Shown here: positions 1,236-61,483 of the stretch, one piece after another | Layout of the letters: each line of letters begins with the position of its first letter | How positions within the stretch are numbered: the stretch's first letter is position 1 | Assembly: GCF_026151205.1 (NCBI RefSeq) | Contig: NC_087083.1 | Coordinates: forward strand, 2,742,536 to 2,806,535 | Source of the DNA: Bolinopsis microptera | Taxonomy: Eukaryota > Ctenophora > Tentaculata > Lobata > Bolinopsidae | Reading direction: 5' to 3' | DNA: 64,000 bases | Program-made: the position numbers and the translations under genes | Notes under the pieces: generated by a model | Database searches by the model: none | Told to the model about the DNA's origin: nothing | Seen by the model: only the letters and a program-made list of their open reading frames with translations

Positions 1236-1808
1236 CGAGGCTTGACCCGAGCTGCTTCAAAGCCGACTTGAGGGCAATTGGACCTGTCTTAAAAGAAGTT
1301 GAATACTCTTCAGACAAAGCATGTATGAATATTTGTATCGCTGCAACGAAGTAAGTTTTGATAATTTTAAGTATTTTATATCATTAAAGTATATATAATT
1401 TGTTACTCTTTGACTTCTTTTTCATCATTAGTGGCATAGTACCACTAACCAAGCTTTGCCTTTTTGTTGCAGACAATGGTGACTTGAACAATTTTGAACC
1501 ATATTTCACATGTGCAACGAGCGTTACATATAGAAGACTCACATGCAGTAGTTCCACAGGAATGCTTATAAAAATGTTGTTTTACTATGAGTAGTTCCAC
1601 AGCTGACTCTTTCAAAAACCTAACAATCAGTTTAATTTCTCCAGCTGTATGGTGGCGGTTATTAGTCCAAAGCTTTTGGATGTGACAAGTTGTTACGCTA
1701 TTGGTGAATACACTCTGTCTGATGATAATGCCTATGGTTGGTACACTGCTGTGAAACAATGCTTGGAAACCAAAACCATTACTAATGCAGCTAATACCCC
1801 TGATCCTG
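1236..1808 (+). CDS. PAN/apple-like module 1 of gene A (two exons)
   Basis: Exons 1236-1350 (acceptor TTTACAG, donor GTAAGT) and 1645-1808 (acceptor CTCCAG, donor GTAATG) join in phase 2 to give AAC then TGT. The module has six cysteines: SCF, ACM, ICI, the junction NCM, SCY and QCL. The spacing YSSDxAC-x3-C-x5-C...C resembles the PAN/apple core, a protein/carbohydrate-binding fold. Between the exons (about 1476-1560) lies conserved sequence ending in CSSST that cannot be joined in frame. Confidence 0.65.
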
Positions 1809-4800
1809 GTAATGAAATATTTAATAAACTTGTTCTGCTCTATAACATTAATTTAGGAAACAATATAAAGATACAAAATTTCTGCCCAATATAATTTCGC
1901 AGAAATTTAACTTTGGAAAACTGCAAGACTCTATGACGCTGTTTATTTCAGCCAATTAGCGGACAAGAATTTTTTATATGTATGAAATGTATCACGCGTG
2001 CAATGAATCAATTTTGGCGCGCGAGGACTTTGACTCGCTGCGAAGAAAGTATACCACTAAAATTGATAAAACTCTCAGTCCCTAAGGTTTCTAGGATATA
2101 TGGTACAAGATATCAAAATTACTTTTGTTACCGTGTGCCGTGCTGCGTGCACACGTTTTTCTTAATTGCAAAATTAAAGTTTTCTGGATTTATTACTTTT
2201 ATAACTTAACTAAATATATAATTAAAATTTTCTGATATAATTGGAGTATTAACCCTTATCTTTATTAGGTACTGAAGATGTCCGAAAATGTTTTACCAAT
2301 GATGTAATAAAGATTTTGTTGGAATATTTAAACTCATTCGTTGTCTGACTGTGGGAACTATTGATTCTTGATCTCTATAACTTAACTACTTTTAAAATCA
2401 TATTTATTTTTCAGATCCAAGTTTTATTAATTTACGCAACAAAAATGGACTTGAACGGCGGCTTTCAGAACACATCCCTAAGTCTCCACCTCCTGCTGCT
2501 GTAAAGAGAGTTCACGATAATATAGGTTTATAATACCAAATTCATATTAATAATTTTACCAAAAACCCATTATTGGGTAAACTTTACCGTAAAGTTGACC
2601 GTTGCCAGTGTATCCCTCCCCCAAACAAAACAAAATGATACCAATTTGAATAGTCGTTCTCAAATGCAAAATGATACCAATAATGAAATTATAAAACATT
2701 AAATTACATCGAACCAACTTAAATTTATTAATGTTTTTAAAGCACTTGGATATGGCGATTTTGGGGTTTTGCCGAATTATATAGCTATTCTTTCTTATTG
2801 TCATTTTAAACATTGAATTAGAGTATTTAAATTTTGAACTAAAACTACACCAAAAACCCGCTGAATGACGTACCTGATGAGTCTAAGTGAACGAAAAATA
2901 GTCAAGTTCGTGGGTATATAATAGTAAAAGGAGTATAACTACATAATATAATTATGGCTGACGGTCGTCCGTCGTGCTTGCCAGCACTGTACTTTCAATG
3001 AATAATTATTAACTACTCCCACTACCCTTATAGTAGCAGGAGGTAGTTGAGTGTGCACTTTGATGTACACGATTTCTGACAACACAGGGTTGTTTGTTAG
3101 GCCATTCTTAACCAAAATCGTTTATGTGCACAATTTGTTTTGTTAAAGACAACACTACAGGGCATATTTCCTAAATTACTGGCGTATTACAGGATTTTCA
3201 TATTTTGGCTCCTGAAGGTCATATAGAGACTTAATTTTTAGCTGATGATTACAGCAATGCCCATATTTATATATAATTTATTAATCAATGTATGGTCTAA
3301 CATTTTTCTTTTCCGAGATCAGAGATGTCTGCAAAAAACTAATTTTAAGCTCAGAAGTCAGATGTAAACTCAAATTTTGACTTAAAATGACCGCGATACT
3401 CATGTTTATAATAGATAATATATATAAACAAAATAATAGATGACATAGTTTTATCATATGCCACATTCAATGACATGAGGAAAACTCAGCATGACGTTCT
3501 AAATATTCAACCTTCTAAATCAGTAAAACGTAAAATCTTGACACACGCTGCAACCCCTTTTGATCGAGCGCGGCCGGCGTGCATGACGAGAGCTGGTATA
3601 CAACGTGTAGCAAGTGAAATATAGTTCTTCTATACTTATCGCCATATAAACTTTCACAGCGACGCTTGACGTGAGCTGCTTCAGAGCCGACAAAAGAGCA
3701 ATTGGACCTGTTTTAAAAGGAGTTGGATACTCTTCAGATGAGGCATGTTTGAATACCTGCATGCGATGCATCGCTACACCGGAGTATGTTTTGATAATTT
3801 TACATATATTCTTACATATATTCTTATATTATAAAAACAAAGTACGTATGACTTCTTTTTCATCATTAGTGCCACTTACCAATTTTTGCCAAAGACTCAC
3901 ATGCTCATGAAACTGACAGTAGTCTTTCAAAAACCTAACAATAAGTATTAATTTCTCCAGCTGTATGGCGGCGGTTACTGATCCAAAGTATTGGGCTGTG
4001 ACAAGTTGTTACGCTATTGGAGAGTACGATTTGATCGACGTAAATATAGATTACGCTAGTTCCTCTTCCAGTTGGTACAGTGCTGAGAGACTATGCTTCG
4101 ATCCTTCTTATACTCCTGATCCTAGTAATGAAATATTTGATAAACTTACTCTGCTCTAACTCTTTTGTGAAAAAGCTTTGGCACCACTTGTATTTCGTCA
4201 TACTGGTTGAAAGGCAATAAAAACATTCGACCCAGCCAAAAAGGTTTCGGCACTATAAAACATCGTTGTTAAATACGCGTACGTCAAAAACTCGGCTCAG
4301 AATACGACGTAGTCAATGTTCTAGAGAAATACATAAGAATGCTGGTTGCACTTGTGTAACAATGTGGCTGTTGGAAAGGACCGAAGTAAAATAAGTTTCT
4401 TGATAAAAAAATTAATGATGATCAACTAGTTAAACTCCCATAGACTCCCATAAAGAAAGTTTTCTGAATTTATTACTTTTACAACTCAACTACTTTTAAA
4501 ATAATACTTATTTTTCAGATCCAGGTTTTACTAGCACTTTACCTTACGGAGGTGATCATGGAGCTGAACTTACTTCTCCTTCTTCTACTTCCTATTATTG
4601 TTGGTATTGTTCGAGTACAACTGCAGCTCCTGCAGTTATATCAATATGGGGGGGAGACTCCCAAGGTAAATACTACATATTCATATTAATCATAGATATC
4701 GACAACAGACTTCTGGAGTCTTAGAGCTCTGTTACCTTGACACGTACGCTGCAACCCCTTTTGATCGCGCGTGGCGGCTGGCTGGCCTGAGTGCACGCTT

Positions 4801-5462
4801 CGCGTGCACGAAAGAGGTATACAACGTGTAGCAACTGTTACCACCGCACCTGGTGCAACTCCATCGGTTAAGGACGGAGAGACAGGGATTTCCAGGAGCG
4901 GTCGTGGCCTACTGATATTTGCTTATTTGCAACTCATATGACTATGAGTATATAATATTCATTGAGGGTGATTGTAGAAGGTTTTGCGGTTTAAATATTT
5001 GACTGTTACTCTTTTGCAGATAAGACACAGACTTCTTCGACGATCGTTAGCATTGTAATACTAATAGCGGCTATATTATTAGTCGCCGTGGTTTTGTGTA
5101 TTTGTAAAAAAGTATCAAGACGGCATGTGATGGAACAACACACAGTACGTCCCACCAACCTACCAATTGTTGTTCCAGTGCAACTGCAGCCAGCTATAAA
5201 TATGCGAGAGGAGCCGCTGTCTTCAGATCCAACTCTGCCTAATGTTGCTGTGGATAATGATCAATACGTTCCAAGTTATGAAGAATTAATGGGTTATCCG
5301 GTGGGCCCACCAATTGTTATTCCAGTACAACTGCAGCCAGCTATAAATGTGCGAGAGGAGCCGCTGTCTTCAGATCCAACTTTGTCTGATGTTGCTGTGG
5401 ATAATGATCAATACGTTCCAAGTTATGAAGAAGTAATGGGTTATCCAGCGGGCTCTCGTTAA
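1236..5462 (+). CDS. Receptor gene A: PAN-PAN-TM-repeat tail (5' end not seen)
   Basis: Predicted single-pass type I membrane protein assembled from seven exons: 1236-1350, 1645-1808, 2415-2525, 3660-3783, 4519-4665, with 3961-4124 before the latter, and 5020-5462. They join in one open frame of about 421 residues up to the TAA. Order: PAN/apple-like module, Arg/Pro linker, second PAN-like module, Ser/Thr linker, transmembrane helix, cytoplasmic tail with two 49-residue repeats. All modules are phase 1-1; only the intron inside each PAN module is phase 2. No start codon or signal peptide exon was found, so the 5' end is missing from this model. A has no LDLa exon, unlike B and C. A role in surface recognition is inference from domain content. 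Exon calls rest on splice sites and frame, not transcripts. Confidence 0.7.
2415..2525 (+). CDS. Arg/Pro-rich linker exon of gene A
   Basis: The 111-nt phase 1-1 exon starts after TTTTTCAG and encodes D-P-S-F...LRNKNGLERRL...KSPPPAAVKR. Close copies lie at 12110-12214 (B) and 42523-42627 (C), always directly after the first PAN module. The basic, proline-rich composition suggests a flexible extracellular stalk. No known domain is recognised. Confidence 0.65.
2545..3230. repeat. Intron repeats: half foldback arm plus LDLa-upstream spacer
   Basis: 2556-2690 is a diverged single arm of the foldback family found complete at 18339-18665. 2700-3060 matches the spacer that precedes LDLa exons in B (23210-23510) and C (42775-43045), yet no LDLa exon follows here. 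This suggests an LDLa exon was lost from A. 3225-3420 is an inverted relative of 23655-23830. Confidence 0.55.
3660..4124 (+). CDS. PAN/apple-like module 2 of gene A (two exons)
   Basis: Exons 3660-3783 (donor GTATGT) and 3961-4124 (donor GTAATG) join in phase 2, GA plus C. The cysteine framework matches module 1, with an extra cysteine at MRC. The second exon is longer in the middle (IDYASSSSSWYSAERLC). The out-of-frame CSSST segment seen in the other modules is largely deleted here, which supports treating it as intron in this gene. Confidence 0.65.
4519..4665 (+). CDS. Ser/Thr-rich linker exon of gene A
   Basis: The 147-nt phase 1-1 exon, from TTTTTCAG to CAAG/GTAAAT, encodes DPGFTSTLPYGG...TSPSSTSYYC-WYCSSTTAAPA...GGDSQ. 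A shortened copy is 24409-24477 in B, and a relative is 50125-50220 in C. Its composition fits an O-glycosylated stalk next to the membrane. Confidence 0.6.
4690..4930. repeat. Intron segment conserved between paralogs
   Basis: About 240 bp starting near GGCAACAGACTTCTGGAGTC is repeated at 24510-24690 (B), partly at 49645-49690 and 54310-54430 (C). It contains a short inverted pair GTGCACGC / GCGTGCAC. No exon was supported. A 46605-46640 fragment shares the hairpin part. Confidence 0.5.
5020..5462 (+). CDS. Transmembrane and cytoplasmic tail exon of gene A
   Basis: The phase 1 terminal exon starts after CTTTTGCAG. DKTQTSST leads into a hydrophobic helix (IVSIVILIAAILLVAVVLCI) and the stop-transfer CKKVSRRH. 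The tail holds two 49-residue repeats (147 bp apart) with VPVQLQPAIN, REEPLSSDPTL and DNDQYVPSYEE[L/V]MGYP. YEEL/YEEV resembles the pYEEI class preferred by Src-family SH2 domains and also fits YxxPhi sorting signals. Function is inferred from motifs only. Confidence 0.8.
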
Positions 5463-6600
5463 ATCGCTCGCCCGAATCATGCCTACAGTACAAACTTTTG
5501 CATTTTCTTAAATCAAAATACGCGTTAGTTATTTCTGATATTTCTAGCGCCGACCAAATAGATTGGATGTGAGCAATTAGGGCTAATATTCCATAGTCAA
5601 AACATTTCGCGCCCGCAGAGAACACAACATTGGAGGCTTCTAGAGTTCTAGTGGACCAGATCGCCATTTTGGATTATGAAAAGGTCGATTTGTCTACTTG
5701 ATAAGTCTGAATATCGAAATTTTATTGATCAGTATCATGGTTCGTTATAATTTTAATGTTTTAGCAGCAGTAGTCAGTACTTCTTTATAATTATTGTTTA
5801 TTGAAGAACAGAGTATTACATTTTTCTATATTATTATTTTGATAGCATGTAGCAATTACTTAAAGTAAGTCGTGTGTTCATTTAATCTCTTGCCGGTAAT
5901 TAACTCCCTCGTAGGAATATTATAAAACTCGACAATATCATATTCTATTGTACTTTTTGTCTTTTGAGGTTGCCGAGATAATAACTTGCTATAATGCTTA
6001 TTTCAATATGACAAACACTATGCATTGCTATTTTTCTGATTACAATACTATCATCTACTATAGTCTATAACAGTGTAAGTGTAACCACTAACCAGTTCAT
6101 GTTATTGACCCACAACAGATCAGCTTTAGCACACATCATGAGTGTTATATTACGTACGCGTAAAACAGTCAATCAAGTTATGTAATTTTCGTTTAGTTCT
6201 CTTTATTATAATTATATCGGATTCAAATGAAAATAACGTACTTTGTAAAAAAAAACAAAAAACTAAAATGGCCAAAGTTTTATCAAATCCCGGAAGGAAA
6301 CCAAATTACGTGCTATTCTCGAAATCTGGGTCAGATTAGAACCCACAATTTGGTTTCCTTTCTGTGAATTTCATTTTATTTTTCCCTCGCACGCTTTGGA
6401 AGCGAAGCGGCAAAGTCCGTCCGTTTCTACCCCCGAGAATTCATTGACAACTTATCCCGTTTTGATGATCGAATAGCTACAGTTATATCCACATTTGTCA
6501 TCTCCGAAAGCCTGGATTGTAAATGTATTAATATGCTTTAGAAAACCTATAATTTTATAGCAATATAAATAAGCTTTTTCAGCTTGAGTATTTTTTGTGA
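5463..6600. repeat. Duplicated 3' flank of gene A
   Basis: Probable 3' UTR and downstream DNA, homologous to 31271-32440 after gene B. No canonical AATAAA is obvious close to the stop; the site matching AATAAA at about 61744 after gene C reads AATAAC here. No other gene is visible. Confidence 0.55.
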
Positions 6601-6614
6601 AACTTGATTTCGAG

Positions 6615-7360
6615 ATAGCAGTTAGTTAACCAACAAACTATAATCCAGTGACCGAACTTTTGAGGGGGTCCCGGACTCCAACCGCCAAACGGAGCCCGCA
6701 GGGCAGCCATGCCCATATTTGGTCCAAATTAGGCCCAATTTAGCCAAATACCCTGAACATACTTAAAACCCAGATTTAAGGTGCTCCACATGTAGCTAGT
6801 GATCTCTTGAACTCGTATATGAAATTTCATCGGACAAAAAATGACTGAGTTATGAGCCAAAAACCATATGTCCATATTTGGGCATACGCATCAAATTTGG
6901 TAGAATTCGTCCCATAAATTTATTAAATATCAATATTTTTGAATGAGACTTACTTTATATTACTTTATATTACTTTATATGAAAGGTAAGCCTAAACTAC
7001 ATATTCTCTGTAAGTTTTAGCTTAAAATCTGTTCAAATGTGGATACTAAGGCAAAAAGACCACAAAAAATAACTAAATTGCTCGTATCTTGGTTCGCGAT
7101 ATTCGCGGAATTGATCTCATTAAAATTGTAACAACTCAATCAGTTTTCAAAATTTTTGCATGAAATTTTTGGAATCGACTCGAAATCGCATTTCCACCTT
7201 ATTTTTGAACAGATTTTTGATTTAGGCCTCAAAAAAAATTGGCGGCTGGGCATTGGACCAAATATAGGCGTGGCTGCCCCGCAGGCACTGTTTGGCGGTT
7301 GGGGTCCGGGACCCCCTCAAAAGTTCAGTCACTGGTCCTAGTTTATTGGTCAACTGCTAT
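6615..7360. mobile_element. Foldback element with GGGGGTCCCGG-type arms
   Basis: The ends are inverted copies: ATAGCAGTTAGTTAACC...CCAGTGACCGAAC on the left, and their complement through GTCACTGG...CAACTGCTAT on the right. The arms include CCAACCGCCAAACG and a CCCATATTTGG block. No transposase ORF is present, so it is non-autonomous. Relatives lie at about 32440-32945, and as separate halves at 39205-39430 and 42180-42350. Confidence 0.6.
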
Positions 7361-9935: not shown

Positions 9936-10650
9936 TATGTTGATATTTGTTCTAATTTATAGTCATTTGTGCTTTTATGATATTTTAAATGATTTCTCGT
10001 TGTTTTGATATTTGTTTTTGTTCAGTAATTTGTTGTAAAATGTTTTATTATTTATTCGTAAGAGTCCTCAATTTCCTCGCGTCCTAAGCTATAAGATGGC
10101 GGTTGTCTTGTTGCATATGTAAGTATCTTAGGACGTTTTCGGACGTTATCTGTATTTTAAAGACACATTTTAATATCTACATTCAATATTTTTCGATTGT
10201 TTTCACACTTGTCACAATTCGTTATTTTATTCCTAGGTGGAAATGATGTTATTGTGACTTTGGGCTGCCATCATAAAACTTTTGTTTTGAAAGTTGTCTT
10301 TTGTGCTTGCATTACTGACCCACGCTTTTTAGCATATAATTATACTTATATAAATTTTGACTGAATTTATAAATATATGATTATGCTTGTTCAAATTAAT
10401 ACTGTCAATTTTTTATTTGATGGGTTGCAGGGTTATTCCGTTATGGGGTTGATGGGGATGGGAGCATGGTGGTAATGAATCAAGAAAAATACGAAATTGT
10501 TGAACGAGGTTATAACAACACATTTTCATGTTTTTATTTTGACCCTTGTTTTATAATCAATCCGTTATCTAGTTTTGTGTAATAGAACGGCGATAACAAC
10601 AGTATTACATAACAAGATGATAGGATTGGTGATACTTCTTCTCTGCCCAG
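9936..10650 (+). promoter_or_regulatory. 5' flank of gene B; candidate first-exon region
   Basis: Conserved before genes B and C. It contains AAGATGGCGG (about 10094), a YY1-type start-region motif with a good Kozak ATG, followed by MAVVLLH and a GTAAGT donor. This could be the first coding exon, but no following exon was found that joins it in frame to the PAN module, so promoter and exon status are inference. Confidence 0.3.
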
Positions 10651-10662
10651 ATACTTTTGAAG
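10651..10662 (+). CDS. Candidate 12-nt phase 1-1 microexon (gene B)
   Basis: A strong acceptor (TTCTTCTCTGCCCAG) is followed by ATACTTTTGAAG and then GTGAGT. Read in phase 1 it gives DTFE and joins to the PAN exon as A-R-L-D-P. The copy at 38111-38122 is identical. The A copy has lost the acceptor G. Confidence 0.4.
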
Positions 10663-10883: not shown

Positions 10884-11458
10884 CGAGGCTTGACCCGAGC
10901 TGCTTTAAAGCCGACTTAAGGGCAATTGGACCTGTCTTAAAAGAAGTTGAATACTCTTCGGATAAAGCATGTATGAATATCTGTATCGCTACATCGAGGT
11001 AAGTTTTGATAATTTTAAGTACTTTATAACATCAAAGTATATAATTTGTTACTCTTTGACTTCTTTTTCATCATTAGTGGCATAGTGCCACTTATAACCA
11101 AGCTTTGCCTTTTTGTTGCAGGTTGACAATGCTGACTTGACCATTTTTGAGCCATATTACACACGTGCAACGAGCGTTACATGTAGAAGACTCACATGCA
11201 GTAGTTCCACAGGAGTGCTTATAACACTGACTTAGACACTAAAAGTAGTTCCACAGCTACTAGGTCTAGACTGAGTCTTTCAAAAACCTAACAATCAGTT
11301 TAATTTCTCCAGCTGTATGGCGGCGGTTATTAGTCCAAAGCATTTGGATGTGACAAGTTGTTACGCTATTGGTGAGTACACTCTGTCCGATGATAATGCA
11401 GAAAGACGATGCTTGGAAACCAAAACCCCTACTAGCACAGCTACTACCCCTGATCCTA
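10884..11458 (+). CDS. PAN/apple-like module of gene B (two exons)
   Basis: Exons 10884-10998 and 11313-11458 join in phase 2 (AG plus C). All six cysteines are kept. The second exon is 18 nt shorter than in A and C because six residues between DDNA and ERRC are missing, an in-frame deletion. The CSSST segment at about 11130-11225 again does not fit the frame. Confidence 0.65.
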
Positions 11459-14400
11459 GTAATGAAATATTTAATAATAAATAAACTTGCTATGCTCTAA
11501 CGTAACATATAAGGAAACAATAATAATATGAGGATAAAAAATTCTGCCCAATACAATTTCGCAGAAAAATTGAATTTAGAAAATTCAAAAACTCTATGAC
11601 CAATGACGCTGTTTATTTCAACCAATTAGCAGACAGGAATTATTTAAATGTATCACGCGTGCAATGATTTGACGCGCGGGAACTTAAACTACTACTAGCT
11701 GTGAAGAAATTACTACTTTAATTAATATTAATAAAACTCTCAGTTCGTAGATAGGGTTTCTAGGATATATGGTACAAAATATCAAAATTACATTTGTTAC
11801 CGTGCGCCGTGCAAACGCCAAACGTATATACTTTATTCCAAAATTAAAATTTTCTGGATTTATTTTTTTTACTGGGCCTTAACGGCCGGTGATACTCGTA
11901 AAATATCTGTTCCATATATTGGAGTTGGACCGTCGACGAGTCCAACTCGGCGCGCGTCCTGGTAGGTAGTAAACCTACAATACTGGGCCGCGCTCAGCTA
12001 GCCTGTCATTCCGCCAAATCTCTATTATGAACATAATAGCCTGAGGTCCCCAGGTAAGATCTATTACCTTTATAACTTTACTAATTTTAAAATCATATTT
12101 ATTTTTCAGATCCAGGTAAAGGTTTTATTATACGCAACAAAAATGGACTTGAACGGCGGCTTTTACAACGCATTCCTAAGTCTCCACCTCCTGCTGCTGT
12201 AAAGAGATATTACGGTATATACCATCTTACCATATTCATATTAATAATTTTACCAAAAACCCATTAATATTATTGGGTAGAGTGGACTGTTGCCAGTGTC
12301 CCCCTTCCCCAAACAAAACGAAATGATATCAATTTGAATAATTACCGTCCTCAAATGCAAAACGATATCGATTATGAAATTGTAAAACATTAAAATTATA
12401 ACGAACCAACTCAAATGTATTAATGTTTTTAAGCCCCTAGCTGGATATGGCAATTTTGGCATTTGGGGTTTTGCCGAATTATATAGCTACTAGAAAACCC
12501 GTGGTCACGGGGAGGAAGCTAATAGTATTTTTTGTTAGTAAGTTTAAATTATATTTAAACTTACTAACAAAGCTATTCTTTATTATATTTATTGTCATCT
12601 TTATGATTGAATTAGAGTATTTTGAACTAAAACTACACCATAAACCTGCTGAATACTATTAGTACTAATAGTACTGTACTAGTGTACTATACTGTACTAC
12701 TAGTAATGTACTATTAGTACTATTAGTACTGTACTATCAGTACTATTAGTACTGCATTATAGTATAAGCATATTAGTCAACCTTCACTATTCTGATAATC
12801 GTAGTCAAGTCCTTCAGTGCTCCATTATTATGTGATTTTAACTGATTACCCTGATAACCCTACAACTCAACAACGCCGGGCCAAAGGGAGTTGATAGTAC
12901 TCTCAACCAGAACGTGGTCTTTATAAACACCTCCGAGTTAGAATAATCAGCCGGGCGGGCGGGATAGATTCTGATAATCCTGGCTCCCGCTGTTAGTTTT
13001 ATTGTTTATCCCGCTTAATAAATAACCCCGGTACAGCTATAATCCCGCCCCGCTAATTTGGCTCAACAAGATGTTGAGTTGATGAATCCAGATTTTTGGA
13101 ACAATTTTGGAATGGGAAAAAATTGTGACATGCATTAATTTGCCCTAATATTATTAGGGCAAATTAATGCATGTCACATATCCATCATTTACAATTATTT
13201 TTGTCACTATTTGGAGCTTATTTATATTAGTAATAAGCTCCAAATAGTGCCAAAAATAATTGTAAATGATGGATATTATAGTTGCAAGCTAGGTCTAGGG
13301 GCCATCGAAAGTAGCATAACATTACCGAGGTTCATGGAATGAAGGAAAATGAACAAAAATTAATATTCTCCTAAAATTGCTCAAAACGGTTCAAAGTGGT
13401 CAGAAAGTGTTTATAATTATATCCACCAGCAGGCTATATTTTGTCTTCTGACCTCTCGCAGCCCGATGTAACAAGACACAGTGCGCGTCCAGCCCGCTTA
13501 AAATACAGCACGCGAGCAGACGACACTTAACGTGACAAGTAACAATACAGCCCGGAGCACTTTCACTTTCAAACACTGCCCGATACGATGATAATTGTTG
13601 AAGTATTCTAATCGCTTGGTTCATTGTCTAAGTATTTACCTACCTTGTTAAAGTTGGATTTGGTTTCTAATTCAATACAGTTTGGTTTTTTATTCAAAAC
13701 GGTTTTAGTATGTCTGTTTGCATGGGAACATGTCTGCTACGCGCGCACGTGACTGCTCTTGTATGTCACGTGACCTACTCGTGCGAGCGCATCTACGCTT
13801 CTATTAGACGAATTTGATGTCACGTGACTGAGCAGTGTACTAGGTGGCAGTTGCCTATACCGGGCCGACTCTAATTAGGGATCGCTTTCACTTTCACGTT
13901 TCCGTTTCCGCCCCTCTGCCTAAATTTCCGCTCATTTCCTGCCCAGCCACTTAATTGTTCGGAGCTCAGCGATTGAACCATTTTGTTGAATCTGACCTCT
14001 GAGGTCACTTAAACGAGATGTCTGATTGTGACCCTAATTATATTCCAACCCCCTCTCAACTTCCCGACCAGGGAGACTCCGATTTTGATCCGGACATTGA
14101 TAAATTGTGTAGAGTAGCTGACCGTCGTCCTTTCTGCCCCGGAAACTTTGATGTTGGAATATCAGACTTGATCCCCTCCACACTTAATCGTTATTCTGGT
14201 TACCTTTATCCTTACCCGTATGTTAAACTGAACTGCCGAACTGTTTGAAATGTTTGACTTGATCCCCGTACTAGCTGGTAGAAATGATTGTTTTTAAACT
14301 GCTGAAAGGTTCATGATCAATACTTCAATAAAATTGTTTTGTGATTTCACCAGACCTTGATATGAATTGCTTAACCTTGTGAAATTAAAATGTTTCATTT

Positions 14401-34474: not shown

Positions 34475-34600
34475 ATGCATGCCACCAAAGGAAAGGAGTG
34501 GAATGCTGTTATTATTGTTCAGAAAGGGAAAGGGAATCAACAGAACAAAGCAAGATGTCTCTACTGCAACTACGAATTTATTGCAACTGCGACAATGTGA
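34475..34600 (+). pseudogene. BED zinc-finger fragment, second copy
   Basis: Equivalent of 9276-9401 with two or three substitutions (P2H, D to N); the open frame is kept at 41 codons. Confidence 0.5.
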
Positions 34601-34614
34601 CTATATGATAACTG

Positions 34615-38090: not shown

Positions 38091-38110
38091 GATACTTCTT
38101 CTCTGCCCAG

Positions 38111-38347: not shown

Positions 38348-38905
38348 CGAGGCTTGACCCGAGCTGCTTTAAAGCCGACTTAAGGGCAGTTGGACCTGTC
38401 TTAAAAGAAGTTGAATACTCTTCAGATAAAGCATGTATGAATATCTGTATCGCTACATCGAGGTAAGTTTTGATAATTTTAAGTACTTTATAACATCAAA
38501 GTATATAATTTGTTACTCTTTGAATTCTTTTTCATCATTAGTGGCATAGTGCCACTTATAACCAAGCTTTGCCTTTTTGTTGCAGGTTGACAATGGTGAC
38601 TTGACCATTTTTGAGCCATATTACACACGTGCAACGAGCGTTACATGTAGAAGACTCACATGCAGTAGTTCCACAGGAGTGCTTATAAAACTGACTATAA
38701 AACTGCTATAAAAACCTAACAATCAGTATTAATTTCTCCAGCTGTTTGGCGGCGGTAATTAGTCCAAAGCTTTTGGATGTGACAAGTTGTTACGCTATTG
38801 GTGAGTACACTCTGTCCGATGATAATGCATATGCTTGGTACACTGCAGAAAGACGATGCTTGGAAACCAAAACCCCTACTAACACATCTACTAACCCTGA
38901 TCCTA
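38348..38905 (+). CDS. PAN/apple-like module of gene C (two exons)
   Basis: Exons 38348-38462 and 38742-38905 join in phase 2 (AG plus C). Residues SCFKADLRAVGPVLKEVEYS, then CLAAVISPKLLDVTSCYAIG and WYTAERRC. Six cysteines kept. The CSSST segment (38600-38690) is conserved in sequence but out of frame, as in A and B. Confidence 0.65.
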
Positions 38906-51200: not shown

Positions 51201-54200
51201 TCTTGATATTATTGGGGCAGGAAAAGTTAATTTTGTCACATTTTCAGTGTCTTTGACAAATTAATCTAAAATTGTTAAATTTGAGCTCTGATGTTCTGAA
51301 CAATATTCTACCAATCGTTTCTGAAAGAATGTTGAATTCTAATAGAGTTATAGATCTTCAAAATAGGGGCAAGACATGTTTACTTTGTCACATCAGTTAT
51401 TATTAGAGTTAGGTAATCGTCATCACATTAACATTTTTTTGTAGTAGTTTGGATTGATTTATTTAGGTAATAAAGCAGCCTATGCTAATTTTTACACACT
51501 ATCTTGAAATTGTTGGGGCAGGAAAAGTTAATTTTGTCACATTTTTAGTGACTTTGACAAATTTAACCTGTCACATCAGTTATTATAAGAGTTATTATAA
51601 GAGACTATTTCATTCTATAATCATTGTTTTTAACCTATTTACGATTTCGTATCATTTTTTGTGACAATGTAAACATCAACTGATCTTAACTTGCATCAAC
51701 TACATTGTCATCATGTAAAGTTTTCCCGCCTTTCAAACCAAAATCAGATATAAATAATTCGCTCAAAATTTTAAATTCCATATATTGTGACAGAATTAAC
51801 CTCATTTCCCAATAACCAAGTGCTTGTATTAGCTAACTATTCAAAGCAACATATTTTAGGGCTATGATTGGTACTCCGTACTTGGTAGATCAACCATCAA
51901 ATAATAAGTAAAAAGGGTTTTGAGGACACCTCGCAGTAGAATAGAGGTATGGTATTCTGAGTGTGACAAAGTTACCTAAATATTGCCTCGTAACCCATCG
52001 ATCCGTGCCCTTTAACCAATGTTGTATCATAATTGTTAGATTGACCTAATCTACTATGTTTCAGACCAAGGAATGATAATTAGACAACTGCAGTTAACTA
52101 AGTCACACAAAATTTGACATTTGAAACATTATAGCGCCTAACAACAGCAGATTTTCTTTCTGAGCAGTGCATATGGGAGTGTGGGTTACGTGGCTAATGT
52201 TCAGAACTTCTGAACGTGCTAGGTTAATAGATGTCAAAATTAAGCCAAAAACGCTATTATTTTTGTTTACCAATATCCTCAAACTCAAATGAACGTGTCC
52301 ATATACTATATACCATATTATTATATCTGTTATAACAGATATAACAGATATAACAGAAATAACAGATATAACAGATATAACAGTTGTCTCTTCTGATATA
52401 TATATATATATATATATATCTGTTATATCTGTTATATCTTGCTATTTGCAACTGGTATGAGTACATGCAATATTCCTGATGGGTCATGTTAGTTATTTAC
52501 CTGTGGGAAAGAGCGGTTATGCTGCGGTTCTAAGTTAGTGTCTATGTAGGCTATTAGAATCTTTTCTCTGTTGTATAGACGGTTAAGTTAAACCCATGCA
52601 CCTCCTGTTTGAGCCACCCACGCCACACCGTGTGGAGGTTCGGGTTTTCGGGGGGCGAAAATGGACTTTATAGCGGTAGTTTTGGATCACTGATCCTTAA
52701 CCTCTTTACAAAGGTCTGAAAGGAGGCACAGTTTGCGATGACAAATATGAAGAAAAATGCTGCGGACGCTATTTGTGCATTGCTCGTGTATACAGATAGT
52801 AAAACAGCATGGACCTCAGGATACAAATAAGCTAATAACAGATTAAGACTAACTACATTATCAAAATGAAAAATGTAAAATGTGAGGGCAAAACTTGGCC
52901 AAACTGCACGCGTACGAAAAGGATAGTTCTATACGCTAATCTATCAACTATAATGCGATTTAGTTGCAAGATCTGAAGATCAGTGTAATGATATAGCTCA
53001 ATAATATAGTCTTATAGTGTCAATATAAAGTAGACACACGCTAGGGCTACGGGGGCGGGGTGACAATTATCTCGGATAACCGCCCTCGTACCCGTTATCC
53101 GTCAAAATGTTAGGTTCGAGTGATTGCACCGCGAGCAAATCACAAAAAAGAATAATCTTGACAGACACAGATCACGTACCAACGTATTCCCTTTTTAGTG
53201 TTCACTGCTCTGAGCTGAGACCCTATGTCTAGCCTTAGTGTGACCAGTCGCTGTTTTTATTTTGTTACGGGCCCGATATGGAAGTTCATTGTTTGTTGCC
53301 AAGTTGTGGTAGTGGTACATTTAAAGATTTAACAGTTGCGTGGACAAATCGTCCCAAGAATCAACATGCAAATCAACCTGATATTGATAATGGACGACTG
53401 AGCGTTTCACACCAATTAATGAGAGCTATCCTCCTCCTTACTACTAGCAGGAACCCGTCTAACCCTAAAATGGTGTCAAGACTCAAGAGACTAAAACAAT
53501 TATTACCTATTTAATTCGCGTTTTTGACACCACTTGGGGTACCAAATTTTGGGCTCTAAAACTCCTATTTCTTGGCCAATTTTTTATTTTTTCATGCTGA
53601 TTTGGAGGCCATGAAAGCATTCGACCCAGTCAAAAAAGTTTCAGTTATATATCTTTGACGGTTTTTGCAGAAATTCGCGTTAACGTTGATGCCGTGGTGT
53701 CAGTAAAATGGCACGGATAAATAAATATATCGTCTCGCTTTATATATAGTAAGATAGTACTAATAGTACTTCTGTAATTTCTAAGATAAAACAACGCTTC
53801 GTAGAGTATATTACTCGCAAAAAAAAATGTTATAGTGTTATGCCTTTCAATAAATGATGATCAACTACTCCCACAGATGGATCAGAGTACTGCCCAACAT
53901 TTTATTGGAAGTGCTCGAACGGTTGGCAATGTATTAAGGATAGCTGGAGATGTGATGTTTATACGCATTGTTACGATGGATCAGATGAAACAAACTGCCC
54001 AGAGCCAGGTTGAGTGTCTACAAACTTATTTGTAAAGTTTCTATCAAATCATATTTAAATTTGTATGATAGCGTATAACTTTATAATTGTCGCGAAAATT
54101 TTATAGTGTTATGACTTTCAACAAATGATGATCAACTACTCCCACAAAGAAAGTTTCCTGAATTTATTACTTTTATAACTCAACTGCTTTTAAAACAATA

Positions 54201-57200
54201 TTTATTTTTCAAAATGCAGGACCTGCTTCTCAGCGCGTCCCTCTCGTGCTGCTGTGGAGAAAGACTCCCAAGGTAAATACTATATTCATATTAATCATGA
54301 TAGATATCGGCAACAGACTCCAGGAGTCTTGAAGCTCTGTTAGTGTTACCACCGCACCTGGTGCAACTCCATCGGTTAAGGACGGAGAGACAGGGATTTC
54401 CAGGAGCGGTCGTGGCCTACTAATATTTGCTTATTTGCAAATCTGGTAATCTTTTTTTGCTCTTATGAGTGGGTCAATCATTTAATTTGAATTGTAGTTG
54501 ACGAAGTGAGAGTCTCCACTCAGTGTGTTAAAACATAATTCTTTGTCGACGTTTCGGCTACATGCCTTTGTCATAGACAGGACGTATTGATAACTTACAT
54601 AGCTGCAAAGTTACAATGTTAAAATAATCTATTAATATTACGAAATATTACAACAACAAATAACATCTTGAAACCCATACAATTAACAAGTGACAACGCG
54701 AATCAACCACGTACTCATCACATAAAACCACATACCCCAAATACAATCGGAAACAAGAATTTCGCCGCGGTTAAACCAAGCACGATCAATTTTCCCGGCC
54801 CTACGATGTACTTGTACCATTAATTCTTTTGAGTGTGACTGGAAAAAAAGTGCAACATATTTACATACTATGTTTTTATAAATGAGTGGGATTCGTGCAT
54901 GGTAAACATTTACGATTTATTTGACCAATGTACTAGCGCCGCGCATCAACAATAAATGAATCCAGAAAATTGCGGAAAATAACTTTGCGAAGGAGGAACT
55001 TCACTGTAATTAATTAACACATGGCTAGCGTCGCGCACAGCATAACAGACGCTTCCTATACACATAATTATAGGGGAGTGGTCTATATTGCGAAGGAGCA
55101 GACTTTTGTCGTCAACGTAGGACCGTCGGGCCACCTCATATATCCAAACCCAATTACTTATTCCCTACGATCTTTTTGCCTTCGGCAAGAGCAGGGAAAA
55201 AAATCGCGAAACAAACGATCACAAATTTTTTATTTTTTTATTTTTATTTTTCAAAAGAAACATATTATATAACGGCTAAAAGAATCCACACCGCATCAAG
55301 CCGTGAACAACCTCATAGTACTACAAACATTTTACCAAGATAGCTCCTTCATAAAACTGAGTAATCAAAAATTATTTAGGTTAATAAGTTCAATATTACA
55401 TTAACTTCCAAGTATATTTTGTCAAATCACCTTCATTTACGGACTCAGAAAATTGAGTGTTTATTTCTGGGTTTTCACGTTTTATTAGAACCGACTGCCA
55501 CAATTGACGGTCCACATAATCTTTGCATCTTTTGCGAACTATAAACCGAAACGGTATGTTTGGCATTGAAATGTCTGCATGCTCCTCTAGGTAGTGCTTT
55601 CCCATGGCCGTAGATTTGTTGCCATCCCTTACTGATTTGTAATGTTCCCAGGCTCTATACTTCTTTTAAACCTACGAGTTTCCCCAATGTAGGACTTATT
55701 ACATATCTGGCATATTAATTGGTAGCAAATATTTTTGATCATGCAGGATTTATCGCACTGGTAGCATTTGCTGTCACTTTGTTTATTATATTTTGTTTGC
55801 TGTAGGCTAGATCTTGTTAATGCTTCCATGAGACGTTGTCCTGATGTGAATGTTACCCTTACCTGGTGGAATCCAAGAGGTTTTGATTCCTTAGAGTATA
55901 GTAGACTTTTCGACACGTCTGTTCATTTATATAAGGTAATGATAAGTAATTGCTATTTTTGAGTTCTTTTTAGGCGCATCTTGCTTATCCAGTGAATTCT
56001 GTGTTTCTTGAATAAGTTTCTTGACAATATTAGGAGGGAAACTATTCTTCTTTAGCATATCTGCTATTCTGTTGATACTGAGATCTTGTAGTTCAGGTGT
56101 GGAGCTGTTATTGATAGCCCTTCTGATATCATTTTTGGCTGAGTTCAGCATCGTTCTACGAGGGTGAGCACGCAGAGGCATAATTTAGGAATATGTCCTG
56201 GCTGGTTGGTTTAACAAATAAGAAAAAATCTAACCTCTGTGATCGTTGTTTCGCGATTTTTTCCGATTGTATTTGGGGTATGTGGTTTTATGTGATGAGT
56301 ACGTGGTTGATTCGCGTTGTCACTTGTTAATTGTATGGGTTTCAAGATGTTATTTGTTGTTGTAATATTTCGTAATATTAATAGATTATTTTAACATTGT
56401 AACTTTGCAGCTATGTAAGTTATCAATACGTCCTGTCTATGACAAAGGCATGTAGCCGAAACGTCGACAAAGAATTATGTTTTAACACACTGAGTGGAGA
56501 CTCTCACTTCGTCAACTACAATTCAAATTATTTGCAAATCGTTTGACTATGAGTATGCAATATTAATGATGGGTCATGTTAGTTATTTACCTGTGGGAAA
56601 GAGCGGTTATGCTGCGGTTCTAAGTTAGTGTCTGTGAAGGCTATTATATTCTTTTCTTTGTTGTATAGACGGTTTTAAGTTAAACCCATGCACCTCCCGT
56701 ATGAGCCACCCACACCACACCGCGTGGAGGTTCGGCGAGGTTTTCGGGGGGCCAAATAGTGGTAGTTCTGGATTACTCCTTTACAAAGGAGGCACAGTTT
56801 GCGATGTCAACTTTGACCAAAATATTTTTGCATTGCTCGGGGTATAACACAAATAGTAAAAGTTTTACTATTTGTGTTTTTTACTATTTGTGTAAAACAG
56901 CATGGACCTTAAGATACAAATGTAAGATCCAGTTTAACTATACTTGTAATTTTAAATGAAAAATGTAAAATATGAGGCCAATACTTGGTTGAGCTGCACG
57001 TACGAAAAGAATAGTTTTAATTGTATACTATTACTCTAATCTAACTGCGTATAATACGATTACACTATTAATTGCAGGAGGTGCAGCTGAGTTTGATTAT
57101 TGCGGTTATTTCACGAGGCGCAGCCATGTACAATAACAGCTGGTGTAATTGTATTTTATACATTCACGAATTTTGGTCCGTTTTTCCTCCTCCAGGTTAA

Positions 57201-60200: not shown

Positions 60201-61483
60201 ACACATTAATTTTTATGTAATTGGCTTAAATAGGGCTAATTTGAGGTGAATTTGTCAAATAAGTTGTTTTACGTGTTTTGTGAGACAAGGATACGCATAT
60301 CTCAGGTAAATAGAAAGTTACTTAGTATAAAAATTACTGAATAGAAAATACTGGTTTTTCAGTGTTACGTGAAAAATGTGCGTCAGATTCAAAATTATCT
60401 CACATATAATTTTATATAGACTTCTATAACAACGACTAGTTTCACACTAGAAAAACATTTAGTACAAAATAGAATAAGGAAGACATGCAATTTCCACCCT
60501 TATGGAATAACTTGAACAGCTAAACATTGTTGTTAAACAAATGGATCCTGCTCCGAAAATTCTAACATTTCAATTGCCTCAGTTATAGCTGATTTCCTAA
60601 ATCCGTTTTTAATGATAGTTTTACCACGATCTGTATGAAACTTATCAAATATTTCTACAATCCATCTTGCATGTTTATCCTTCAAAACGGACAACCTTAA
60701 ATCGACACTGACATTTAGTTTTTCACGATTTTTAAAAATTCCATCAAAAACTGATTTTGATTTCTCTGAAATAATTTAGCGTGAAAATGCGACAATTTAA
60801 TTTGGGGTACGAAATTTGGGGATTTCTGAAAAAAATCCCCATATTTTCGTTCCCCCATAATTCCGATCCCCAGAATTATGATCCACATAAATATGTCTTG
60901 TAAGGTAATTATTTTGCCTGTGCGTTTAAGTTCACCATTTACTAGGCTCGCTACTATTTTTCGAGCTTCTTGCAAAGTTCTTGTATATGTGAAGGGAACT
61001 GGGCCGAGCGAAAAAATATACAGCATGTACGGAGGCTAATTATTGAACTTGGGAATAGCCTGGAAGATTTTGTTTATAAACTTCCTCTATCATATGTTTT
61101 TTACAAATTGTAGAAGGTTCCGTGGTTAAAATATTTGACTGTTCCTTTTTTGCAGATAGCTCAGCTAAGACACAGACTGCTTTGACGAACGTTGGCATTG
61201 TAATAGCGGCTCTATTATTCGTCACTCTCGTCAGTCGTCACTCTGCTTGTTTGTCTTTCTAAAAAAAGGATCAAGACAGCATGAGATGGAAGAACCCACA
61301 GAATGTCCCATCATGACTAACCCACCCCCACCAATTCTTGTTCCAGTGCAACTGCAGCCAGCTATAAATGTGCGAGAGGAGCCGTTGTCTTCAGATCCAA
61401 CTCTGTCTAATGTTGTTGTGAATAATAAGCAATATGTTCCAAATTGTGAAGTTTTGATGGGTTATTCTACGGCTGCGGTCTGA
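38348..61483 (+). CDS. Receptor gene C: PAN-LDLa x5-TM, damaged 3' part
   Basis: Exons 38348-38462, 38742-38905, 42523-42627, 43050-43175, 47408-47530, 48081-48200, 48329-48457, 49552-49611, 50125-50220 and 53877-54008 join in frame. If the phase-broken exon 54220-54272 is skipped, the frame continues into 61156 and stops at 61262, giving about 424 residues with a short helix and no tail. The tail repeat (61263-61483) is out of frame. Thus C encodes either a tail-less receptor or is becoming a pseudogene. It differs from B in having five LDLa exons and no beta-domain exon. Introns contain pogo-like, Penelope-like and hAT fragments. No 5' exon with a signal peptide was found. Confidence 0.6.
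39420..40345. repeat. Region with recurring CCCCTAAAATGTC
   Basis: The motif or close forms occur at both ends and about four times inside, in direct orientation on the left and inverted at the right end. GGTAAACC / GGTTTACC mark possible termini. No ORF. Confidence 0.4.
41023..41884. mobile_element. TA-flanked element, CCTTACTCGGGA ends
   Basis: Terminal repeats CCTTACTCGGGAATATTATA and complement with small differences; TA on both sides. Subterminal AAAATATGGCGGAATYTYCC occurs twice. A 77-codon minus-strand ORF (41369-41602) is present but not recognisable as a transposase. Confidence 0.75.
42523..42627 (+). CDS. Arg/Pro-rich linker exon of gene C
   Basis: 105-nt phase 1-1 exon: PGFTLRNKNGLERRL...PKSKSPPPAAVKRYQ. 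Same module as 2415-2525 and 12110-12214. Confidence 0.65.
43050..43175 (+). CDS. LDLa repeat 1 of gene C
   Basis: 126-nt phase 1-1 exon: CEEGYWKCSDGEKCIDERFVC...KCYDGSDQTDCS. Six cysteines; the usual DGSDE ends in Q instead of E, as in the next two repeats. Confidence 0.85.
43204..44761. repeat. Tandem repeat unit 1 (foldback plus 1-kb block)
   Basis: Begins with a foldback element (43204-43722, arms TTTGACCAAAACCC) whose loop carries GGGTTGCGTTCGGGTCGATACC. It continues with the ATGACGTCATC block. Directly followed by a second copy. Inverted relative at 16955-18665. Confidence 0.7.
44762..46440. repeat. Tandem repeat unit 2
   Basis: Copy of 43204-44761, starting again with the foldback (44762-45269) and extending further to GACAATCTGTCGTAAAACAG and AATATGGCGATTTTGGG. 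A partial third copy of this end is 46770-47130. Confidence 0.7.
46651..46730. repeat. Minisatellite AGTAAAGGGGGTATAAT
   Basis: Five irregular 17-bp units. A second array of the same motif (…GGGGTAAATAGTAAAG) is at 47133-47265; both sit in equivalent repeat copies. Confidence 0.85.
47133..47265. repeat. Minisatellite GGGGGTAAATAGTAAA
   Basis: About eight 16-17-bp units, same origin as 46651-46730. Confidence 0.85.
47408..47530 (+). CDS. LDLa repeat 2 of gene C
   Basis: 123-nt phase 1-1 exon (GACACAG / GGTTGAG): RECQGNQMEKCADGEQCIDA...QCYDGSDQTDCS, six cysteines. Confidence 0.85.
47575..47840 (-). mobile_element. SINE or LINE-tail insertion with (TTA)n end
   Basis: Read on the minus strand: a GC-richer body (GGTCTCGACTGCCTAGGCGT, CTCTGGCCCGGGATCAGC), then GAGAGAAACC-type sequence and an ATT/TTA microsatellite tail at 47585-47605. 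It interrupts the LDLa-flanking intron, whose homology resumes near 47990. No RNA polymerase III boxes were identified with certainty. Confidence 0.45.
48081..48200 (+). CDS. LDLa repeat 3 of gene C
   Basis: 120-nt phase 1-1 exon: RECHEDSEKCSDGEQCFHPS...RCNDGSDQTDCS. Six cysteines; Tyr of CYDGSD is Asn. Confidence 0.85.
48329..48457 (+). CDS. LDLa repeat 4 of gene C
   Basis: 129-nt phase 1-1 exon: RECQGNDMEKCADGEQCIYA...NCNDGSDETNCPTS. The start is like repeats 2-3, the end like the gene B repeats, which suggests a recombinant exon. Confidence 0.85.
48478..49368 (+). mobile_element. Pogo-like TA-flanked element, copy 1
   Basis: Ends CCTTATCGGACCTTATTTGG and complement; TA on both sides; the empty site survives after other LDLa exons (CAAACTTATTTGTAAA). 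Repeated GTCCGTTCAA motifs lie at both ends. Carries a DDE relic; deletion derivative. Confidence 0.85.
48694..48903 (+). pseudogene. DDE transposase remnant (pogo/Tigger type)
   Basis: Frame LGPPEAQKTLLVYDVFKGHL...NNIVHELVPANMTNLFQPLD. YDVFKG holds the second catalytic Asp, and VPANMTxxFQPLD is typical of DDE_1 (CENP-B-like) enzymes. The N-terminal half is deleted; a further piece (KPLHAEWLVKVNTEM) follows after frame breaks. Copy at 57577-57780. Confidence 0.75.
49552..49611 (+). CDS. Ser/Pro linker exon of gene C
   Basis: 60-nt phase 1-1 exon after TCAAAATGCAG: SPSSPSSPSWTTSFLDDPQ. Probable stalk. Confidence 0.55.
50125..50220 (+). CDS. Ser/Thr linker exon of gene C
   Basis: 96-nt phase 1-1 exon: PSFTSTLPYGNQLTTSWSST...GETYSQ, related to 4519-4665. 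Its donor GGTATAT is directly followed by the terminal repeat of an inserted element at 50224. Confidence 0.6.
50224..52303. mobile_element. 2.1-kb element with 41-bp TIRs and GTCACA repeats
   Basis: 50221-50261 and 52266-52306 are perfect inverted copies (TATGGACACGTTCATTTGAG at the end), with TA outside. The inside is non-coding and contains about eleven [AT]TTGTCACA motifs plus a ~300-bp direct duplication (51050-51250, 51360-51550). Confidence 0.75.
52320..52440. repeat. ATAACAGAT microsatellite and (TA)n
   Basis: ATAACAGAT units, a TA run and inverted ATCTGTTAT units form a large imperfect hairpin. 52445-52980 is the conserved intron segment also seen at 30500 and 56570. Confidence 0.9.
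52980..53520 (+). pseudogene. CTLD-end relic, copy 2
   Basis: Frame disrupted before MEVHCLLPSCGSGTFKDLTV; open from there to 53514. Otherwise equal to 22140-22680. 53520-53870 holds no recognised gene (homology to part of 4190-4260). Confidence 0.5.
53877..54008 (+). CDS. LDLa repeat 5 of gene C
   Basis: 132-nt phase 1-1 exon: EYCPTFYWKCSNGWQCIKDSWRCDVYTHC then DGSDETNC. Six cysteines; closer to the gene B repeats than to C repeats 1-3. Confidence 0.8.
54220..54272 (+). pseudogene. Linker exon with broken phase (gene C)
   Basis: Starts after TCAAAATGCAG like 49552 and ends CCCAAG/GTAAAT, but is 53 nt, so it enters in phase 1 and leaves in phase 0. Using it would shift the frame of the tail exon. 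Confidence 0.6.
55396..56181 (-). pseudogene. GIY-YIG endonuclease remnant of the Penelope-like element
   Basis: Three minus-strand pieces in shifted frames: 55927-56181 (SFPPNIVKKLIQETQN), 55629-55916 (CYQCDKSCMIKN then LICQICNKSYIGETRRF) and 55396-55605 (GKHYLEEHADISMPNIPFRF). YIGET after CxxC-type pairs is typical of the nuclease end of these elements. At least two frameshifts. Confidence 0.7.
56441..56468 (+). ncRNA. Hammerhead-ribozyme-like core in the terminal repeat
   Basis: TGACAAA-GGC-ATGTA-GCC-GAAACGTC resembles the CUGANGA / stem II / GAAA core of type I hammerheads known in Penelope-like elements, but two conserved positions differ. The inverted copy is 54545-54572 on the minus strand. 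Probably inactive. Confidence 0.3.
56541..57360. other. Intron DNA of gene C, with single satellite monomer
   Basis: 56570-56960 repeats 52500-52860. 57075-57194 parallels 24690-24794, and 57195-57223 is one unit of the 29-bp satellite. 57225-57360 contains RATTACAAAAYTAATCGCA twice. No exon is supported. Confidence 0.5.
57361..58264 (+). mobile_element. Pogo-like TA-flanked element, copy 2
   Basis: Same family and orientation as 48478-49368, TA on both sides, DDE relic at 57577-57780. The two differ by scattered substitutions and small indels, so they descend from one deletion derivative. Confidence 0.85.
58424..58693 (+). pseudogene. C-type lectin C-terminal exon with linker, open copy
   Basis: Open frame ITYQRIHCSALRPYEVKTCD then QPQFFFCYEPD: C...C...FFCYE is the usual end of a C-type lectin domain. 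A Cys-bearing linker (DCLLPSCGSGTFKDLIVAW, then SDIDNGRLSVSQQL) follows. The first two thirds of the lectin fold are not in the window and no donor in the right phase was found, so it is treated as an exon relic. Confidence 0.45.
59115..60905. mobile_element. TA-flanked element, CCTTACGAGACATATTTAT ends
   Basis: Same family as 33710-34214; TA outside both ends. Enlarged by a nested hAT fragment and an internal 189-bp duplication (59199-59387, 60185-60373). Confidence 0.8.
59390..60187 (-). mobile_element. Nested hAT fragment
   Basis: Ends GGCTTGTCCGCCG and complement, with CGGCGG-rich subterminal DNA. 59685-59936 (minus) reads FELLRFWADRQKTVPILSNI, IPASSAEIERTWSATGLIL, the hAT C-terminal dimerisation block. 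No 8-bp duplication is seen at its edges. Confidence 0.7.
61156..61483 (+). pseudogene. Transmembrane/tail exon of gene C, frameshifted
   Basis: In the splice frame it reads SSAKTQTALTNVGIVIAALL, FVTLVSRHSACLSF and stops at 61260-61262. A 16-bp duplication (GTCACTCTCGTCAGTC) and an extra A explain the shift relative to A and B. The other frame keeps a single tail repeat (VPVQLQPAIN...EEPLSSDPTL) in which SYEE has become NCEV, removing the tyrosine. Confidence 0.7.

Follow-up and report, generated by a model that had tools for sequence, protein, structure and literature searches.

The window analysed here is a 64-kb stretch of the Bolinopsis microptera genome (C12:2742536-2806535; C1 to C13 are the large contigs), and genome-wide searches covered the 264.65-Mb assembly. 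It contains three paralogous units, A, B and C, all on the plus strand, with fronts at 1236, 10884 and 38348 and tails at 5020, 30828 and 61156. The first-pass annotation had described three paralogs with a common PAN-like front and a repeat-bearing tail that differ in the middle. This picture has held up: the three units share one orientation, and their middles are a second PAN in A, a beta domain plus three LDLa in B, and five LDLa in C. We believe that they are probably a tandem cluster of single-pass surface receptors built from swappable exons, of which A and B are intact and C is a pseudogene. Rfam gave no matches in the 64-kb window.

Exon borders were set by comparison with paralogues; an automatic scan for splice-bounded exons missed several real exons. 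Nine exons make up gene A (971-5462) and ten make up gene B (10617-31270), with AG and GT borders throughout. The predicted proteins of both run from a signal-peptide-like N-terminus through a two-exon PAN-like domain, a linker, a variable middle and a stalk to one transmembrane (TM) segment and a two-repeat tail. The N-terminus is a candidate signal peptide with a hydropathy of just 1.1-1.2 over 19 residues, the TM segment is strongly hydrophobic (3.46 over 19 residues), and the tail holds two 49-residue repeats containing YVPSYEE(L/V)M. The membrane topology is thus a predicted one, and recognition or adhesion is a putative function of A and B. The tail tyrosine motifs YEEL and YEEV were considered as an ITAM and rejected, because at 49 residues apart they do not follow the ITAM rule. 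In the lists that follow, a slash within a sequence marks a junction and pairs of digits are the phases at the two exon ends.

Gene A
971-1016, plus strand: exon 1, Met and signal-peptide-like MIGLAILLLCPNTFE, moderately hydrophobic, phase 0-1, donor AG/GTGAGT
1236-1350, plus strand: PAN-like, first half, phase 1-2
1645-1808, plus strand: PAN-like, second half, phase 2-1
2415-2525, plus strand: linker cassette, common to B and C, 1-1
3660-3783, plus strand: second PAN-like, first half, 1-2
3961-4124, plus strand: second PAN-like, second half, 2-1
4519-4665, plus strand: stalk cassette, 1-1
4832-4900, plus strand: optional Thr-rich stalk cassette, 1-1, weak donor GTCGTG
5020-5462, plus strand: TM helix and tail with two 49-residue repeats (YVPSYEELMGYP and YVPSYEEVMGYP), stop

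Gene B (its beta exon is listed below with the element around it)
10617-10662, plus strand: exon 1, signal-peptide-like
10884-10998, plus strand: PAN-like, first half
11313-11458, plus strand: PAN-like, second half, with a short in-frame deletion
12110-12214, plus strand: linker cassette, 1-1
22719-22853, plus strand: LDLa 1, 1-1
22996-23136, plus strand: LDLa 2, 1-1
24073-24192, plus strand: LDLa 3, 1-1
24409-24477, plus strand: stalk cassette, 1-1
30828-31270, plus strand: TM and two-repeat tail, stop

The homology of B to the A stalk exon 4832-4900 ends inside the B counterpart, at about 24691. It stops there at a 29-bp minisatellite of 66 copies (24796-26727) in the last intron of gene B, and this adjoins a reverse-transcriptase frame at 28632-30386 in the same intron (RVT_1, E 5.7e-27).

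Reading frames and domains

Joined from Met to stop, gene A gives 461 codons and gene B 588, in one frame and with AG and GT at every junction. The full-frame joins described earlier, 422 codons for A and 572 for B with the stop counted, are sound in frame and borders but lacked exon 1 (46 nt) and, in A, the exon 4832-4900 as well. Our models without exon 1, and in A without that optional exon, give 423 and 573 codons including the split first codon, which correspond to the earlier figures. It had also been said that nearly every exon has length 2+3n+1. This is true of 17 of the 25 internal exons, which are 1-1, but the other eight are PAN halves, 1-2 and then 2-1, and are symmetric as a pair only. 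The count of 25 covers A, B and C and excludes two doubtful exons of C, namely 54220-54272, which is open only as 1-0, and an out-of-frame exon near 54344 that corresponds to 4832-4900. As gene models, A and B support the view of modular receptors made from symmetric phase-1 cassettes. That any cassette can be added or skipped stands on the evolutionary scale, where five LDLa exons in C compare with eight in the inverted paralogue described below and B holds a beta exon borne by a Helitron. It is important to realize that a 1-1 design is, in itself, the usual exon grammar of extracellular proteins in animals.

As a control for chance, we counted open 1-1 intervals of 110-150 nt with at least six Cys and splice borders. 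There are five on the plus strand and two on the minus strand, and the same criterion found one in total in ten Markov-1 random sequences. All five on the plus strand are LDLa exons, out of eight in the window. A candidate third PAN exon (1432 to about 1560 in A) was rejected: it is open in A without a GT donor, and in B and C a GGTT insertion leads to a stop. Exon 1236-1350 ends in phase 2 and joins 1645-1808, which starts in phase 2, directly.

The LDLa identity proposed at first is certain. These exons, three in B and five in C, carry six cysteines and a DGSDE-type acidic cluster, and in a profile search the joined proteins matched Pfam PF00057 with whole-protein scores of 80.9 bits for B (E 7.4e-23) and 97.8 bits for C (E 3.8e-28) against a cut-off of 24.1. 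The front domain is PAN-like by pattern rather than a filed PAN/apple member, so the earlier label keeps its pattern but not a family. Six cysteine columns are invariant in an alignment of ten sequences, seven of which are joined tblastn pieces, and their spacing is what we take to be the PAN pattern. The Pfam scores, however, fall under the curated cut-offs. The window fronts reach 19.4 and 18.3 bits for MANEC (cut-off 25.5) and 11.5 and 12.0 for PAN_4 (cut-off 27); the lowest E among the ten front sequences is 0.0012, for PAN_1. Against PDB, the factor XI apple domain appears at E 0.42, outranked by viral E2 chains at 0.015. The TMEM51 profile scores 25.3 bits on the TM and tail of A against a cut-off of 25.5, 17.0 on those of B, and 22.3 (E 1.2e-4) on the exon alone. 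We regard this match as borderline, not as membership.

SPINT1/HAI-1 and LRP11 combine a MANSC/PAN-like domain with LDLa and a single TM, and our cluster resembles them in its PAN/MANSC-like front, its LDLa and its one TM helix. It differs in that Pfam finds no Kunitz or PKD in A, B and C and the MANEC match is below cut-off; the tail repeats and the beta domain are not features of SPINT1/HAI-1 or LRP11. The beta domain is undescribed and by sequence has no counterpart in Pfam or PDB. The B exon matches no Pfam family at an E of 1 or below, the 16 copies compared give nine unrelated single-member hits, and no PDB sequence matches the exon at an E of 5 or below. C66, W85, C99 and N100 are invariant in those 16 copies. 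A single-sequence AlphaFold2 model has a pLDDT of 41 and is unusable. The genome has at least 123 matches to this exon (150 of 236 candidates were scored, some exons being split in two rows and many matches weak), and the domain family is strongly expanded in it.

Gene C, the inverted paralogue and selection

Gene C is probably not functional in this genome because a TIR transposon splits its exon 1 and its TM exon is frameshifted. Its parts are as follows.

35940-38090, plus strand: TIR transposon, 2,151 bp, within exon 1, with the 8-bp target duplication GATACTTC at 35932-35939 and 38091-38098
38348-38462, plus strand: PAN-like, first half
38742-38905, plus strand: PAN-like, second half
42523-42627, plus strand: linker cassette, alternative earlier donor possible at 42588
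43050-43175, plus strand: LDLa 1
47408-47530, plus strand: LDLa 2
48081-48200, plus strand: LDLa 3
48329-48457, plus strand: LDLa 4
49552-49611, plus strand: candidate stalk cassette
50125-50202, plus strand: candidate stalk cassette
53877-54008, plus strand: LDLa 5
61156-61483, plus strand: TM and tail remnant with one repeat; compared with A and B, the frame breaks within the TM segment

Other repeats lie in its introns. The last intron holds inverted repeats of 274 nt (54483-54756 and 56257-56530), 1.5 kb apart and 99.6-100% complementary, which are likely a young TIR transposon. Between LDLa 1 and 2 there is a 1.5-kb tandem copy (43194-44652 and 44752-46200, 90.6%), and nested arms of about 150 nt, direct and inverted and 98-99% alike, occupy 43203-46200.

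About 320 kb away, C12:3123912-3183731 is an inverted paralogue of C12:2734953-2805897, either a true duplication or an unpurged haplotype. Identity is 90-99% among the blocks listed (at least 300 bp and over 90%) and less in other blocks. Exon 1 of gene A with its flanks is 95% identical to this copy, exon 1 of gene C is uninterrupted there, and the frame break in the TM exon of C is present there too. The beta exon has no match in the copy. It holds two genes, A' and C'. A' is damaged, with a truncated front and broken exons. Its tail exon is nearest to A (99.0%, against 96.2% for B) but the DNA around and behind the tail is nearer to B (97.8% to window 30770-34614, against 93.7% to 3417-6617), and this indicates that units have recombined. 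C' has eight LDLa exons, two of which carry stops, against five in C, so cassette number changes between close copies. A further family copy on C2 (15658000-15669000; L007, L008) has one front and two tail exons, in DNA about 78-85% like the window.

Pairwise dN/dS was computed for 17 pairs. For the front domain the ratios are 0.41 (A/B), 0.38 (A/C), 0.86 (B/C), 0.63 (A/A2) and 0.61 (C/C'), and for the tail of A and B the ratio is 1.83, with two synonymous changes. The LDLa pairs, named by gene and exon, give 3.80 (B1/B3), 1.58 (B1/C5), 0.58 (C2/C3) and 0.51 (C5/C'7), zero for C1/C'1 and C2/C'2, and undefined values for B1/B2 and C3/C'3. Since the synonymous changes are too few, the ratios demonstrate neither purifying nor diversifying selection.

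The first-pass annotation took the array for a variable immune-recognition locus, here read as one under diversifying selection. The modular ectodomains, the TM and the tyrosine-bearing tail repeats fit this idea, as do the change from five to eight LDLa between paralogous copies and the ratios above 1 (3.80 and 1.58 for LDLa, 1.83 for the tail); SRCR and other immune-type domains are reported to be abundant in ctenophores in what PMC11797021 summarizes. We nevertheless consider it unlikely. There are two intact genes only and one broken one, the inverted copy is decayed, every one of the five front pairs has a ratio below 1 (0.38-0.86), and the ratios above 1 come from pairs with just 1.2 to 2.2 synonymous changes. 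One could also argue that the whole array is a decaying relic in which A and B are unexpressed pseudogenes as well, still open because they are recent. C, A' and C' do carry stops, frameshifts or insertions, the tail ratio is not below 1, and the homology of B to one stalk exon breaks off at the minisatellite and LINE region. However, the frames of A (461 codons) and B (588 codons) are open throughout and no splice border is missing, and the front ratios of 0.41 (A/B) and 0.38 (A/C) are low. We believe this makes the relic idea improbable.

The beta exon and the element around it

Among the candidates scored, the best match to the beta exon of B besides itself is on contig C6, at 96%. The flanking intron of the two is also alike, which is unexpected for an old paralogue. 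The homology stops at identical bases on both sides, at A/TCTCTATT on the 5' side and at CACGGGCTTTCTAG/T on the 3' side. These are the ends of a composite Helitron-like element, which in the window is made up as follows.

18914-20049, plus strand (sense), in an intron of gene B: composite Helitron-like element, 1,136 bp, with the beta exon inside; 5' end A/TC, 3' end a hairpin and CTAG/T
18914-19212, plus strand: unit 1, a complete 299-bp non-autonomous Helitron, TC...CTAG
19244-19687, plus strand: beta-domain exon, 147 codons, captured cargo, 1-1
19785-20049, plus strand: unit 2, a 5'-truncated Helitron, source of the terminator of the composite

The C6 composite, which we call C6a, is 1,046 bp long (C6:12331109-12332154, minus strand). 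Identity between the two is 98.3% (1017/1035 aligned columns, with 112 gap columns besides) and their parts are equally alike: 433/441 in the exon, 235/240 in the 5' flank and 348/354 in the 3' flank. Both have the termini of a Helitron, starting with TCTCTATT (5' TC) and ending in CTAG (CTRR). In B, the element interrupts a dispersed repeat inside a 10.5-kb intron. This repeat is probably a LINE, as suggested by a minus-strand reverse-transcriptase fragment about 1 kb from the element (E 1.5e-6, just under the cut-off). The empty site of B can be found in the genome. Its joined flanks occur 38 times, 4 of them exact, 32 with one mismatch and 2 with two mismatches, and the reversed control occurs 0 times. 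Insertion at A/T without target duplication is seen at this empty site and at an empty site on C7 for a related 71-bp element described below.

Other features of the family agree. A 3' hairpin with a stem of 5-6 bp, 8 bases before the end, forms in every terminus folded with RNA parameters, four in all, including two identical ones. Unit 1 has at least 78 genome matches (40 of 1,226 candidates scored). Of these, 45 span positions 1-299, the copy in the window included, and several stand head to tail. In each full-length locus inspected (L053, which is the window, L054 and L055) an A precedes the unit and a T follows it; the match at L056 is partial and begins at base 7. The 23-base 3' terminus (19191-19213 in the window) has 1,022 genome matches at up to two mismatches, against 0 for the control. 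Candidate sources of the transposition machinery are 41 genome matches to the profile of the Helitron Rep domain PF14214, several in long open frames.

The shared 1.1-kb block could in principle stem from segmental duplication or from gene conversion instead of transposition, and duplication is active here, as the C12 inverted copy and near-identical 3.5-kb copies on C13 attest. We find this hardly credible. The block ends are TC and CTAG at both sites, unrelated DNA lies directly beyond it, and B's site has 38 uninterrupted counterparts.

Both composites lie in sense in receptor-like genes. C6a is between two SRCR exons (Pfam E 9.2e-12 and 4.8e-13) in an intron that is phase 1 as read by eye from the bordering bases and open frames, and the B composite is between the phase-1 borders 12214 and 22719. 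A 1-1 beta exon in phase-1 introns can be spliced in without a frameshift, and in our model of gene B it would be part of the mRNA. The serious alternative is that Helitrons did carry the exon but that it is dead cargo, a passive intronic insertion that the B transcript ignores, B being PAN, three LDLa and TM. To this we would give a little less than an even chance. The exon is inside a dispersed repeat in a 10.5-kb intron, and according to PMC4778049 most of the fragments captured by maize Helitrons are drifting. The beta ratios are near 1 (0.85 for B/C6a, 0.97 for B/C6b, 0.79 for C6a/C6b, where C6b is the second C6 copy introduced below). B and C6a differ by 2.5 synonymous and 8.5 nonsynonymous changes, in which selection is not detectable; with only 11 changes the open frame means little. 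Against dead cargo is the arrangement itself, a complete open exon with both splice sites, in sense and in matching phase 1-1, found twice (B and C6a).

Proposed capture of the exon and comparison with known systems

Earlier states of the exon are still present in the genome. The beta copies on C7 read ACGTCCA/TGTTTT, which is the state before any Helitron. At C6b (C6:12766567) the beta exon is outside any composite and a 71-bp TC...CTAG element is 30 bp upstream, at the same A/T. When the Helitron end and the adjoining beta intron are searched as a single pattern, three of the ten matches listed are exact (B, C6a and C6b) and the other seven have three mismatches. The junction between native intron and unit 2 is found in B and C6a only, at up to three mismatches.

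We propose the following sequence of events. A Helitron would first have inserted at A/T, upstream of a native beta exon and some 30 bp away from it. A later transposition would have passed the 3' terminator of that Helitron, run through the exon and stopped at the terminator of a second Helitron, to give a 1.1-kb composite with the beta exon and both its splice sites. The composite would then have arrived, in sense, in phase-1 introns of the SRCR receptor gene on C6 and of gene B on C12. The element found at C6b is a 71-bp relative and not the 299-bp unit 1, so the exact donor state is missing. On the whole we consider it likely, from the structure of these loci, that the receptor ectodomains change by gain and loss of phase-1 cassettes, through local tandem duplication of LDLa exons and through delivery of the beta exon by Helitron read-through.

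A more ambitious reading is that Helitrons are a recurrent vehicle which ships ready-to-splice beta cassettes between receptor genes, in which case the 1-1 exon grammar and an abundant transposon would together make a working engine of receptor diversification. The composite is present in two copies only, which makes it one capture and not a demonstrated system. Beta exons on C13 (L057, L058) and C3 (L059), with a Helitron about 230-300 bp downstream in the same orientation, were tried as further captures and turned out to be ordinary paralogues. Over 3.5 kb the two C13 sequences agree at 99.5%, and the C3 paralogue (81-89%) has its Helitron at the same point. All three thus go back to a single old insertion and do not represent captures. 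Because these candidates for a second capture failed, we now regard the engine as quite improbable.

Shuffling of class 1-1 exons among animal extracellular domains, like exon movement between animal genes in general, is mostly inferred from ancient homology. Our cluster resembles that system in its 1-1 LDLa, stalk and beta exons and in PAN as a two-exon 1-1 unit. It differs in that the vehicle is still attached. One domain exon can be traced through four states: native without a transposon, native with a Helitron beside it, and composite in two receptor genes, the second of which (B) has a known empty site. The vehicle, the junctions and the reading-frame rule are thus directly testable in an early-branching animal lineage, and Iso-Seq was used in the annotation of Bolinopsis microptera, as stated in PMC10232365.

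Capture by Helitrons is itself known. The closest parallel is Helraiser and the bat Helibat family, where 3' read-through captures DNA. As described in the excerpted account of PMC4778049, Helraiser has 5'-TC and CTAG-3' ends, carries a hairpin 11 nucleotides short of its 3' end and inserts between A and T, and bypass of its 3' end with transduction of flanking DNA was demonstrated experimentally. The elements here share the TC and CTAG ends, the 3' hairpin, the A/T insertion and the proposed bypass of a terminator with transduction of the 3' flank. In the bat case the same account has a captured promoter, six codons and a splice donor, whereas what is carried here is an entire domain exon, symmetric in phase, that lies in sense within phase-1 introns of two ctenophore receptor genes. 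Maize Helitrons with gene fragments also mobilise host fragments and give chimeric exon combinations, as outlined in PMC3288121 and PMC4528327; in contrast to them, we trace one capture, in two copies, with earlier states still present. No title or abstract opening among the papers listed on Helitron exon capture and ctenophore exon shuffling describes such an event. What is new here is an intact 1-1 domain exon inside its vehicle in two receptor genes, with the earlier states preserved.

Further observations come from the genome-wide searches. Among the 150 LDLa matches scored, dozens are in open frames of at least 500 residues. We considered this as a transposon mark and rejected it, since the one example read (L015, C5:8819001-8825500, 2826-6500 on the minus strand) is an intronless frame of 1,225 residues with LDLa and several hydrophobic segments and looks like an intronless LDLa-GPCR. 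Among solved chains, the Mnemiopsis glutamate receptor ML032222a is the best match to a ligand-binding piece of one receptor of this genome (L021), although the genomic copy nearest to ML032222a has just 79% identity; for another receptor (L016), vertebrate kainate receptors rank first at the strict cut-off applied. The glutamate-receptor ligand-binding domain has 32 matches in the genome, 10 of them in single open frames of at least 900 residues.
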